Shown here in pieces: positions 9,686 to 57,950 of a DNA stretch of 64,000 nucleotides. Source of the DNA: Reichenbachiella agarivorans (lineage in GTDB: Bacteria; Bacteroidota; Bacteroidia; Cytophagales; Cyclobacteriaceae); the NCBI RefSeq assembly GCF_025502585.1, contig NZ_CP106679.1, positions 1,829,501 through 1,893,500 of the forward strand. Reading direction: 5' to 3'. The notes under the pieces are model-generated. The model was not told where the DNA came from, searched no databases, and saw nothing but the letters and a program-made list of their open reading frames with translations. Made by a program: the position numbers and the translations under genes. Numbering within the stretch: the stretch's first letter is position 1; each line of letters opens with the position of its first letter.

Positions 9686-10342
9686 ATGTCAAAAATCAAT
9701 ATCCTCGTTGTAGACGATCATTCATTAGTAAGAGAAGGAATTATTACCATGTTATCTATTTATGATGATTTTGAAATCATCGGTGATGCAGAGAGTGGTG
9801 AGCAAGCCCTTGTCAAGATTGCAGCACAAAAACCAGACGTGATGCTATTGGATATCAATATGCCCGGCATGAATGGTATAGAAACTGCCAAAAAGGTCAT
9901 AGAGGATTATGACGGTATCAGGATTATCATTTTGTCGATGGAAGTAACCCAAGATCATATCTCAGAAGCCATCAAAGCGGGCGTTTCGGGATATCTCGCC
10001 AAAGACACCAAAAAAGAAGTACTAGCAGAGGCCATCCGAAAAGTAATGACAGGAGAGCAGTATTTTGGAGACAAAATATCTGAGGTAATCTTCAAAGGCT
10101 TCTACAAACAAAGTAAGGGTGAGCAAGTTGCGAAGGAAAACAAAGATCTCAGCAAGCGTGAAGTAGAGGTATTGCGTCAGATTGCATCGGGTCTGTCCAA
10201 TCGTGAAATTGCAGACAAACTCTTTATTTCTATCCGTACTGTGGATGCACATAGGAATCATATCATGCAAAAATTGAGCATGAAGAGCACCGCACAGCTA
10301 GTCAAATACGCGATCAAGGAGAGAATCATAGACCTTGAATAG
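9686..10342 (+). CDS. NarL/FixJ-family response regulator
   Basis: A 218-residue two-domain regulator. The receiver domain (residues 4-120) has acidic residues D10/D11, phosphoacceptor D56 in LLDINMPGMNG, and the conserved lysine in LAKDTKKE. The LuxR-type helix-turn-helix (about 150-215) reads LSKREVEVLRQIASGLSNREIA and then RTVDAHRNHIMQKL, both characteristic. It is co-directional with and 13 bp behind the HisKA_3 kinase gene, giving a complete two-component pair. The tandem RNA-like array begins 375 bp downstream on the same strand. A regulatory link is possible but not shown. Confidence 0.95.
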   Translation: MSKINILVVDDHSLVREGIITMLSIYDDFEIIGDAESGEQALVKIAAQKPDVMLLDINMPGMNGIETAKKVIEDYDGIRIIILSMEVTQDHISEAIKAGVSGYLAKDTKKEVLAEAIRKVMTGEQYFGDKISEVIFKGFYKQSKGEQVAKENKDLSKREVEVLRQIASGLSNREIADKLFISIRTVDAHRNHIMQKLSMKSTAQLVKYAIKERIIDLE

Positions 10343-10716
10343 CCAACAAGACTACTCAAAACCATAAAATCCTAGGTAATTTTCTTAGTCAACTAATAGA
10401 AATTTATTCATCTTACTTAGTAGGGCATGATCACTATGTCCTTTGGACTAAATTTAATCACATGACATTACCTGTATTGTTTCAATAAATATTGGAATAG
10501 TTATATTTTTTCAATCAATAGTCTTCGCTAATCCGAATTTTCTAGCCATAATTCCTAATTTTTTTTTTACGTATATCCTCTATTTTTTCAGCTTCATTTT
10601 CCCTCTACTTTTGAATTGTAATTAAAACACAAAGTATTAATTACTTGACTCTCAGGTGAGATCTTGAGATCAGCTACAAAGAAAGAAAACTAGTCACAGC
10701 GGTGACTTTATAAGAT
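10343..10716. other. AT-rich leader region ahead of the tandem RNA array
   Basis: No gene is visible. A TACTTTTG motif at 10606-10613 fits the Bacteroidota -7 element, with only a TTTT at the -33 position, so it could start a transcript about 100 nt ahead of the array. A small hairpin (AGTCAC-AGCG-GTGACT, 10692-10707) followed by TTAT lies 9 bp before the first array unit. Confidence 0.45.
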
Positions 10717-11093
10717 ACGGGATAATACAGGTGGATTAAAAGGGTTGTTACAAAGTGACAACTCTTTTTTAAACTTCTACACAAAGTCCAAAAAAACGGG
10801 ATAATACAGGTGGATTAAAGGGGTTGTTACAAAGTGACAACTCCCTTTTTAAACTTCGCTGGTTGTCACAAAGATACGGGATAATACAGGTGGATTAAAA
10901 GGACTGTTACAGAGTGACAGTTCTTTTTTAAACGCTACTTCAAAAGTCCAAAAAAAAACGGGATAATACAGGTGGATTAAAGGGGTTGTTACAAAGTGAC
11001 AACTCCCTTTTTAAACTTCACTGGTTGTCACAAAGACACGGGATAATACAGGTGGATTAAAAAGGGTTGTTCGATAGAATAGCCTTTTTTTTT
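10717..11093 (+). ncRNA. Tandem array of five ~80-nt RNA-like units, each ending in a terminator-like hairpin
   Basis: Units start at 10717, 10796, 10876, 10958 and 11038 (spacing 79, 80, 82, 80). Each begins with the same 24 nt, including GGGATAATACAGGTGGATTA, followed by a 10-14-bp hairpin and a T-run on the + strand. Stems are GGGTTGTTAC/GTGACAACTC in units 1, 2 and 4, and GGACTGTTAC/GTGACAGTTC in unit 3, where two adjacent pairs changed on both sides (GT/AC to AC/GT). Unit 5 has a different 14-bp stem (11059-11072 with 11077-11090) with a GATA loop and nine Ts. Spacers alternate between two types (1 and 3; 2 and 4), so the array looks like duplicated 160-bp dimers. No reading frame is maintained. 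I infer structured RNAs or stacked terminators; function is unknown. Confidence 0.8.
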
Positions 11094-11149
11094 GCTCAGA
11101 CGCCAAAGTTCATTTTCGATACATATCTTTGTTGGCAAACGTATATTCC

Positions 11150-11806
11150 ATGCTCCAAGCCAAAAATATTCATAAATCATACGGGAAGCTCGAAGTACTG
11201 AAAGGCATAGACCTCAGTGTAGAAAGGAGTGAAATCATCTCCATAGTAGGAGAGTCAGGAGCAGGTAAAAGTACCCTGCTGCAGATTTTAGGCACATTGG
11301 ATACACCTGATGCTGGAGTTGTGGAGATCAACGGCAAAAACACAGTGGGACTGAAACCCAATGATTTGGCTAATTTTCGTAACCGTGAGATTGGTTTTAT
11401 CTTCCAGTTTCACAATTTATTGCCAGAGTTTACCCTCAAAGAAAACATATGCATGCCAGCGTTCATTCAGGGGCGCAATGGTCGGGATTTGGATCAATAT
11501 GCCGAATATTTGCTGGATCTATTAGGGATTGCTGAGCGGCGAGACCATAAGCCCGCTCAAGTATCTGGCGGTGAGCTACAACGTGCGGCAGTGGCGCGAT
11601 CACTGATCAACAAGCCATCACTGATCTTTGCAGATGAGCCAAGTGGCAATTTGGATTCAAAAAATGCCGAAGAACTTCACAAACTCTTTTTCAAGCTGCA
11701 AAAGGAGTTTGCTCAGGCTTTTGTCATTGTGACACACAACCAGTCTCTTGCTGAGATGGCAGACAGGAAGATCACAATACAGGATGGAATGATTCTCAAC
11801 GCCTAG
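11150..11806 (+). CDS. lolD: ABC transporter ATP-binding protein, LolD type
   Basis: A 218-residue ATPase. It has Walker A GESGAGKST at 34-42, a FQFHNLLPEFT Q-loop, the ABC signature SGGELQRAAVARSL, Walker B LIFADEPSGNLD and the H-loop in VIVTHNQSL. The QFHNLLPEFT and EPSGNLD patterns match LolD, which powers release of lipoproteins from the inner membrane, although MacB-type ATPases look similar. No permease gene is adjacent; in Bacteroidota LolCE-like partners are usually elsewhere. The ATG at 11150 is preferred over a TTG 21 nt upstream because MLQAKNIHKSYG is a typical first strand. A TATCTTTG -7-like element lies at 11124-11131, immediately after the RNA array. Confidence 0.85.
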   Translation: MLQAKNIHKSYGKLEVLKGIDLSVERSEIISIVGESGAGKSTLLQILGTLDTPDAGVVEINGKNTVGLKPNDLANFRNREIGFIFQFHNLLPEFTLKENICMPAFIQGRNGRDLDQYAEYLLDLLGIAERRDHKPAQVSGGELQRAAVARSLINKPSLIFADEPSGNLDSKNAEELHKLFFKLQKEFAQAFVIVTHNQSLAEMADRKITIQDGMILNA

Positions 11807-56343: not shown

Positions 56344-56465
56344 CCCCATCTGAGCGTAGAATAGAAAATCACTAGGCGTAGTATTCACTACGCCTTCTTA
56401 TCATTGGGAGGCAGAAAGTAGCATTTTACAAATGCGTTTTTGATCAAAGGTACTTGCATGATGAG

Positions 56466-56633
56466 TTATACTTAGAGCGCCGTACATTACGATTAATGCG
56501 TGGTTAGTTATACCTAGAGCACCGTACACTACGATTATTGCATGGTGACTTATACTTAGAGCACCGTACACTACGATTATTGCATGGTGACTTATACTTA
56601 GAGCATGGTTCATTACTATTATTACATGGTGAG
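56466..56633. repeat. 42-bp tandem repeat (four units)
   Basis: TTATAC begins each unit at 56466, 56508, 56550 and 56592, an exact 42-bp period. Units 2 and 3 are nearly identical and units 1 and 4 are more diverged. Because 42 is a multiple of three, several frames stay open across it, but none looks like a gene. Confidence 0.9.
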
Positions 56634-56899: not shown

Positions 56900-57018
56900 C
56901 CCCCGCTGGCGCGAGCTTGTAGCTCGTGCATCTTCTCAAGAAAGACTGAATATCATGATATTTGTATGAAGCTATAAATCGAAGATAAAAAGTAGTTTAT
57001 TTTTAGATGATGAACCCT
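56900..57018 (+). repeat. Perfect 119-bp direct repeat of the left part of element B
   Basis: Identical to 55142-55260, from CCCCCGCTGG through the ATGATGAACCCT codons at the start of the RAYT remnant, where identity stops. It joins directly to a core copy of the macro-repeat array. Total identity implies recent copying or gene conversion. Confidence 0.93.
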
Positions 57019-57950
57019 CCACTGGTCGTAGAATAGAAAAGCACTAGGCATAGTATTCACTACGCCTTCTTATCATTGGGGGCAGAAAGTAGGGTTCTCA
57101 CCTTGTCATTCTGAGGTTCCCTCCTTGTCACGCTGAGGTTCTCGAAGAGTGGACAAGCAGTACCGAAGCATCAGCACTACCTGCCTATGGTTCGAGTTTA
57201 CCCGCCGAGGCGTGTACTCACCATGACAGGGGGAGACTAGAGGAAAAGGGTACAGAACTGCAGCTCCACTGAGCATAGAATAAAAATCACTAGACGTAGT
57301 ATTCACTACACCTTTCTTATCATTGGGGGCAGAAAGTAGGGTTCTCACCTTGTCACGCTGAGGTTCTCTCCTTGTCACTCTGAGGTTCTCGAAGAGTAAA
57401 CAAGCAGTACCGAAGCATCAGTACTACCTGCCTATGGTTCGAGTTTAACCGCCGAGGCGGTTACCTCACTATGACAGGGAGAGACTAGAGGAAGAGGGCA
57501 CAGAACTGCAGCTCCACTGGTCGTAGAATAAAAATCACTAGGCGTAGTATTCACTACGCCTTCTTATCATTGGGGCAGAAAGTAGCATTTTGCAAATGCG
57601 TTTTTCATCAAAGGGACTATCTTGTGATGCAGCATCAAAACCTTAGCGACATGGGATCAGCCTATCCAATCAGAGATCAGGAAGCTGAGGATTATTATGC
57701 CCTCCACTGGTCGTAGAATAGAAAATCACTAGGCGTAGTATTCACTACGCCTTCTTATCATTGGGGGCAGAAGGTAGGGTTCTCACCTTGTGTCACTCTG
57801 AGGTTCTCTCCTTGTCACTCTGAGGTTCTCGAAGAGTAGACAAGCAGTACCGAAGCATCAGCACTACCTGCCTATGGTTCGAGTTTACTCGCCGAGGCGT
57901 GTACCTCACCATGACAGGGAGAGACTAGAGGAAGAGGGTAAACAACAACC

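Follow-up and report, generated by a model that had tools for sequence, protein, structure and literature searches.

What does a row of five similar, hairpin-bearing units do beside a signalling gene, and where did it come from? The question is raised by a locus of Reichenbachiella agarivorans in the window, the whole 64,000-nucleotide stretch of DNA analysed here, where the array neighbours a response-regulator gene and occupies 10713-11093 with five units on the + strand, each consisting of a 24-nt head, a 14-pair hairpin and a T-run (Table 1). We think it somewhat probable that the locus encodes a multi-site non-coding RNA acting in trans, namely a regulatory RNA of the 3'-UTR type that has become a stand-alone tandem array.

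Architecture and folding of the units

The earlier note, made from the letters of this DNA, had described five units at 79-82 bp spacing with an identical 24-nt head, hairpin and T-run, two adjacent compensated stem pairs in unit 3 and a different stem in unit 5, and all of these features were found. The 24-nt stretch ACGGGATAATACAGGTGGATTAAA is identical in all five units, and its 20-mer GGGATAATACAGGTGGATTA occurs exactly five times in the window (10719-11059, + strand), with no match in 100 shuffles. Outside the array, the window's own genome holds no exact head and a single match at three mismatches. Relative to unit 1, unit 3 differs in two adjacent stem pairs, with both arms changed. Units 1-4 are 77-99% identical overall (units 1 and 3, 87%; units 2 and 4, 99%), and a tandem-repeat row of period 162 shows 92% matches. 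Since units 2 and 4 are 99% alike, growth of the array through a duplication of about 162 bp is supported, in line with the 160 bp proposed before.

Table 1. Features of the array locus, in positions of the window.
Feature	Position	Strand	Remarks
Response regulator, LuxR-type (GerE) DNA-binding domain	9686-10342	+	Pfam PF00072 and PF00196
Palindrome-like block TAGGTAATTTTCTTA	10373-10387	+	3' of the response-regulator gene; recognisable, with changes, in the 8-genome alignment
TCCTCTATTTTTTC block of putative array promoter P1	10576-10589	+	8-genome alignment
TACTTTTG, putative -7 element of P1 (TAnnTTTG)	10606-10613	+	predicted transcription start near 10618
Predicted leader	10618-10716	+	last part TTATAAGAT resembles siaC start in three relatives
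Unit 1	10717-10770	+	head 10717-10740, hairpin 10738-10768, T6
Unit 2	10796-10850	+	head 10796-10819, hairpin 10817-10848, T5
Unit 3	10876-10929	+	head 10876-10899, hairpin 10897-10927, two compensated pairs, T6
Unit 4	10958-11012	+	head 10958-10981, hairpin 10979-11010, T5
Unit 5 (last)	11038-11093	+	head 11038-11061, different hairpin 11059-11090 (centroid), T9
20-mer of the head (starts)	10719, 10798, 10878, 10960, 11040	+	spacing 79, 80, 82, 80
TATCTTTG, putative -7 element of promoter P2, ABC-transporter gene	11124-11131	+	
ABC transporter ATPase	11150-11806	+	Pfam PF00005; ATG at 11150

Folded singly, the units show an unpaired head and a 14-pair stem, with z values of -2.7 to -4.0; the numbers of shuffles that fold as well as units 1-5 are 0, 0, 0, 3 and 0 of 200, respectively. 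In unit 5, some of the head is paired to the tail in the minimum-energy fold, and the centroid leaves the head free. The whole predicted strand (472 nt) folds at z -7.4, keeping the hairpins of units 1, 3 and 5 and rearranging units 2 and 4 via long-range pairing. Of the five units, a simple terminator scan picks out just two, units 2 and 4; it also flags one - strand site in the leader.

The spacers after units 2 and 4 (10851-10875 and 11013-11037) contain GGTTGTCACAAAG, a potential pairing partner for the 3' arm in the adjacent hairpins; by eye, this stretch is absent from the spacers of the other genomes. Two further tandem arrays lie in the window, one at 57017-57585 with units of about 247 bp (2.3 copies) and nested 22-bp repeats, the other at 56454-56632 with 42-bp units (4.3 copies).

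Conservation within the genus and beyond

In all eight Reichenbachiella genomes examined, the unit occupies the corresponding locus, with the response-regulator gene on one side and the ABC-transporter gene on the other. The genomes hold 29 units in total, one to seven each: five in the window's genome (G000), seven in G068, six in G197, four each in G154 and G198, and one each in G124, G175 and G196. The last units of the eight genomes agree in 19 of the 20 head columns; over all 29 units, 13 of 20 are invariant, the variation including three G068 units with a variant head start and two G198 units with GGATAA at the head end. Three genes flanking the array, by comparison, have no invariant position among 115 fourfold sites, and 3-6% of their third codon positions are invariant. 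The head is under strong constraint.

The hairpin evolves in another manner. Among the 29 units (24 of them distinct, pair counts uncorrected for relatedness), a 13-pair helix is paired in 95.5% of 312 cells, and 8 of the 13 pairs have changed on both sides. None of 500 shuffles reaches the observed value on any of five measures, and slid structures score far lower. The earlier note had read the array as keeping its structure while the sequence varies, which the relatives bear out, and had named as a contrary outcome relatives that retain the DNA repeat and lose the hairpins; no such case occurred, and the hairpin covaries. A repeat acting at the DNA level, as a protein-binding array or cruciform with no function in RNA, is very unlikely in our view, even if tandem copies and a 162-bp duplication are what such a repeat would show. 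Summed from the pair table, G-U pairs on the + strand fill 73 of the 312 stem cells; on the other strand they would be A-C mismatches, so that selection seems to act on + strand RNA, and neither the other strand nor a DNA cruciform could form such pairs. In addition, a unit spacing of 66-85 bp gives no helical phasing, and the array has a promoter-like block upstream and T-runs downstream.

Outside the genus, the unit fades. A blastn-type search of 59 genomes recovered the head in all eight genus genomes and in none of the other 51. Judged by the head letters alone, with hairpins not part of the criterion, 92 of 196 family genomes hold a match at up to three mismatches, exact only in the five genus genomes included. 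At up to one mismatch, the head pattern was found among 390 family genomes in the eight of the genus and in 10 of the 382 others; in two of these ten, G114 and G075, a T-run stands behind the head-like match, and the G075 match falls within a 388-codon frame. The covariance-model search that the earlier note had called for recovered the 29 genus units, its own training set, at E 7.9e-10 or better; beyond the genus, its matches were weak (E 4.1e-5 at best) and came from 62 of 237 other family genomes. Twenty of the 22 non-genus loci inspected match the head in no more than 13 of its 20 letters; the loci of G114 and G247 combine 16 of 20 head letters with a hairpin and a T-run, and two others (L099 and L102) hold head pieces with a gap. 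The head-like matches outside the genus may be chance or stray relatives.

At the G114 locus (L097 1501-1555, G114:C1:2678957-2679011), a hairpin and T8 come after the head-like ACAGGTGGATTGAAA, which lies between a transposase-like frame, presumably IS66, and another gene. The G247 locus (L113, - strand, G247:C20:389-434) has TGGATAAAACAGGTTGATTT, then a hairpin and T-run, and its head-like match overlaps the end of a 506-codon frame. Phages and plasmids searched for the unit gave no match. Two exact 18-nt matches in viral contigs were rejected, the 121 nt read around each having neither hairpin nor T-run.

Promoter-like sequences and the link to siaC

Upstream of siaC or the array, CCTCTATTT and TCTACTTTTGA are invariant in all eight genomes, and the latter fits TAnnTTTG, given with this numbering as the -7 element consensus of Bacteroidetes in the section cited (PMC6847099). 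When an A is required after one further base, the -7 motif is about as frequent in the window as in shuffles (17 versus 15.7). The pattern CCTSTATTTT stands upstream of six of the eight siaC genes of the genus, taking one per genome (three of four at this locus, three of four paralogs), at none of 22 loci from other genera (L071 misplaced) and in 2 of 6000 shuffled controls; in G198, the block is present in a changed form that the pattern misses. Further upstream, TAGGTAATTTTCTTA is a possible operator of the neighbouring response regulator, and a TAGGAA-type block is also found upstream of the siaC paralogs L060 and L063.

In all eight genomes, a second promoter-like element, TATNTTTG, follows the last T-run and precedes the ABC-transporter gene, whose product we take to be LolD-like; the element starts 26 nt before the ATG in seven and 13 nt before it in G198. 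The ABC-transporter gene thus has a promoter-like site of its own, and the array looks like a separate transcription unit; this speaks against an attenuator. A tandem set of attenuators or riboswitch-like switches, acting in cis on that gene, would suit terminator-like hairpins placed upstream of it, yet we give such switches scarcely any credence: besides the TATNTTTG element, the single-unit folds leave the head unpaired (bar the minimum-energy fold of unit 5), and in four genomes the unit follows siaC.

The position between two promoter-like sites also bears on the stack of graded terminators that the earlier note had offered beside a small-RNA family. Such a stack would insulate the ABC-transporter gene from upstream transcription and leave the head without a role. 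Every unit has the required hairpin and T-run, and in four of the five multi-unit genomes (G000, G068, G197 and G198) the last unit has the longest T-run; in G154, all four are equal. Termination, however, does not need a conserved head of about 20 nt, three relatives make do with one unit, and 20 of the 22 model-like hairpins in other genera are preceded by no more than 13 of the 20 head letters. We therefore regard insulation as improbable. Of the two readings offered before, the RNA reading holds on covariation and head conservation, and the stack alone is insufficient, as it leaves the conserved head and the single-copy genomes unexplained.

The relatives suggest where the unit came from. 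In G124, G175, G196 and G198, the response-regulator gene is followed by siaC (Pfam PF09345, assigned on the G124 copy), whose stop codon comes just before the first head of the unit(s). In these four genomes siaC separates the promoter-like block from the unit, and the latter carries both marks of a 3' UTR-derived sRNA, a position directly 3' of a coding gene and a terminator-like hairpin; the window does not show this combination. In the other four (G000, G068, G154 and G197), siaC was not found at the locus, its best matches lying elsewhere at 63-65% identity, and the promoter-like block leads into four to seven units. The last part of the leader, TTATAAGAT, also occurs near the siaC start in three genomes, not in G198, where the siaC stop region offers a similar stretch. 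This placement is as expected if siaC had been deleted between short repeats, TTATAAGAT then marking the presumed junction.

In a tree of three flanking proteins, rooted by midpoint only, the four genomes without siaC at the locus form a clade (support 100/99), as do G124, G175 and G196 (100/100), with G198 alone on a long branch. This fits a single loss of siaC at the locus; under the midpoint root, a single gain could also account for it. On our preferred reading, the array would descend from the 3' end of the siaC mRNA: siaC would have been lost in the window's lineage, the promoter and the 3' unit would have stayed, and the unit would have multiplied. The pattern suggests a conversion of the tail of a gene into a repeated regulatory RNA, and the relatives seem to show the steps side by side, namely siaC followed by a single 3' unit, siaC followed by four, and four to seven units with no siaC. 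How an mRNA 3' end gives rise to an independent multicopy sRNA would thereby be directly testable.

Proposed mode of action and comparison with known systems

We propose the following hypothetical course of events, in which transcription would begin at P1 (about 10618), pass through a leader of about 100 nt and the five units, and stop at unit 5. The internal hairpins would end or pause some transcripts, giving a ladder of ends, and would keep the heads apart. Every unit would expose the identical unpaired head as the functional site, so that a single promoter would deliver several copies of one site per transcript, and the head would most likely pair in trans with target RNAs, as in FopS or LhrC.

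Complementarity of the head to gene starts, which the earlier note had suggested looking for, yielded no consistent picture. The 13-nt 3' part of the head has 80 non-self near-matches in the eight genomes, all of them read (reversed pattern, 43). In five, a possible start codon follows the complement at a distance of 12-53 nt and no opposite frame overlaps; each of the five belongs to a different gene. Five more with a start nearby were set aside for an overlapping opposite frame, and no target gene recurs among the 80 in the eight genomes. Pairing was not unusual either with the start regions of neighbouring genes (z -0.99 to +2.53) or with those of four siaC paralogs (z -1.37 to -0.03). Mimicry of or pairing with rRNA was rejected, the head doing no better than shuffles (134/300; 10/60) on a 6.5-kb rRNA stretch that lacks the exact 16S start and end motifs and surely covers only the 23S side.

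The main rival to a pairing sRNA is a multivalent decoy, whose heads would bind and titrate an RNA-binding protein or another sRNA while the hairpins space and protect the sites. The decoy RNAs CsrB, RsmY and RsmZ carry repeated unpaired sites between hairpins on one RNA; likewise, the head of the array, which we take to resemble a CsrA site, holds GGA motifs and its sites lie between hairpins. A long unpaired site between hairpins, a copy number that varies from one to seven with the site nearly fixed, and strict conservation with no recurrent target, which suits a protein site, all speak for such a decoy. We nevertheless consider it possible rather than probable: three genomes have a single unit, and the partners expected were scarce. 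CsrA was detected in none of 59 genomes searched (the family was found in 3 of 14 control genomes), which sets the array apart from CsrB-type decoys and led us to reject the CsrA-site idea; Hfq was found in none of the eight genus genomes in a search that included positive control genomes; and RRM_1 appeared in one of the eight, that of the window (L087, G000:C1:855417-855626). A conserved head in bacteria where neither Hfq nor CsrA was detected points to some other partner, which could be fished with a short RNA bait. A more speculative version, which we rate as rather unlikely, joins this decoy to the history of siaC: the coding region would have gone while the regulated promoter and the 3' unit stayed, and the multiplied unit would titrate some RNA-binding regulator in a Csr-like manner, within one genus in which the searches found neither CsrA nor Hfq.

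Returning to the preferred trans-acting RNA, we compared the array with described repeats and sRNA families. In CRISPR arrays, unique unrelated spacers lie between the repeats; here, the segments between heads are homologous hairpins (units 1-4, 77-99% alike), and this class was rejected. Type III toxin-antitoxin RNAs, tandem repeats followed by a ToxN-type toxin gene, were rejected as well, the two downstream genes being ABC_tran and EamA. A literature search found no paper with both the genus name and 'small RNA', most subscription journals lying outside the search, and no paper on the array locus among the matches listed.

Bacteroides belongs to the same phylum as Reichenbachiella, and the RRM-type protein RbpB is the partner of its FopS RNAs. 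The sections of the FopS report cited here (PMC11697453) describe FopS/GibS sRNAs of Bacteroides with a conserved single-stranded 5' part and a terminator hairpin, 14 FopS copies in B. thetaiotaomicron as separate genes with canonical promoters, and one FopS that is 3' UTR-derived. The earlier statement that no described family has this pattern was thus too strong. The array shares with FopS the multiple copies and the single-stranded conserved 5' part with terminator hairpin; it differs in forming one array behind one promoter-like block instead of separate genes, and in that the RRM domain of RbpB is represented in only one of eight genus genomes. Membership of FopS was rejected, as no FopS family appears among the matches up to E 5 when 10300-11300 is searched against Rfam, the presence of FopS in the Rfam copy searched resting on the deposit statement in the part of PMC11697453 cited. 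Only BTnc060 and BTnc231 were listed, neither near its gathering cut-off: BTnc231 scored 26.8 bits (E 0.0035) and 18.9 bits against 80.4, and BTnc060 27.5 bits (E 0.052) against 228.9, and both were rejected.

For Listeria, the passages cited (PMC6794450) describe LhrC1-5 as five sRNA copies of 111-114 nt with a repeated short target-binding motif (C-rich UCCC), said to be additive and not to require Hfq, and for Pseudomonas they describe a tandem sRNA structure, PrrF1/PrrF2/PrrH, that also yields a longer RNA. The array resembles LhrC in having several sRNA copies with a repeated short site, but its site is purine-rich and its unit about 55 nt. By analogy, it would work most like a multicopy sRNA of the FopS or LhrC type, and would differ from these in its tandem array behind one promoter-like block and in the apparent descent from the siaC mRNA 3' end. 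Tandem sRNA units are also found in PrrF, which in contrast has two units with separate promoters.
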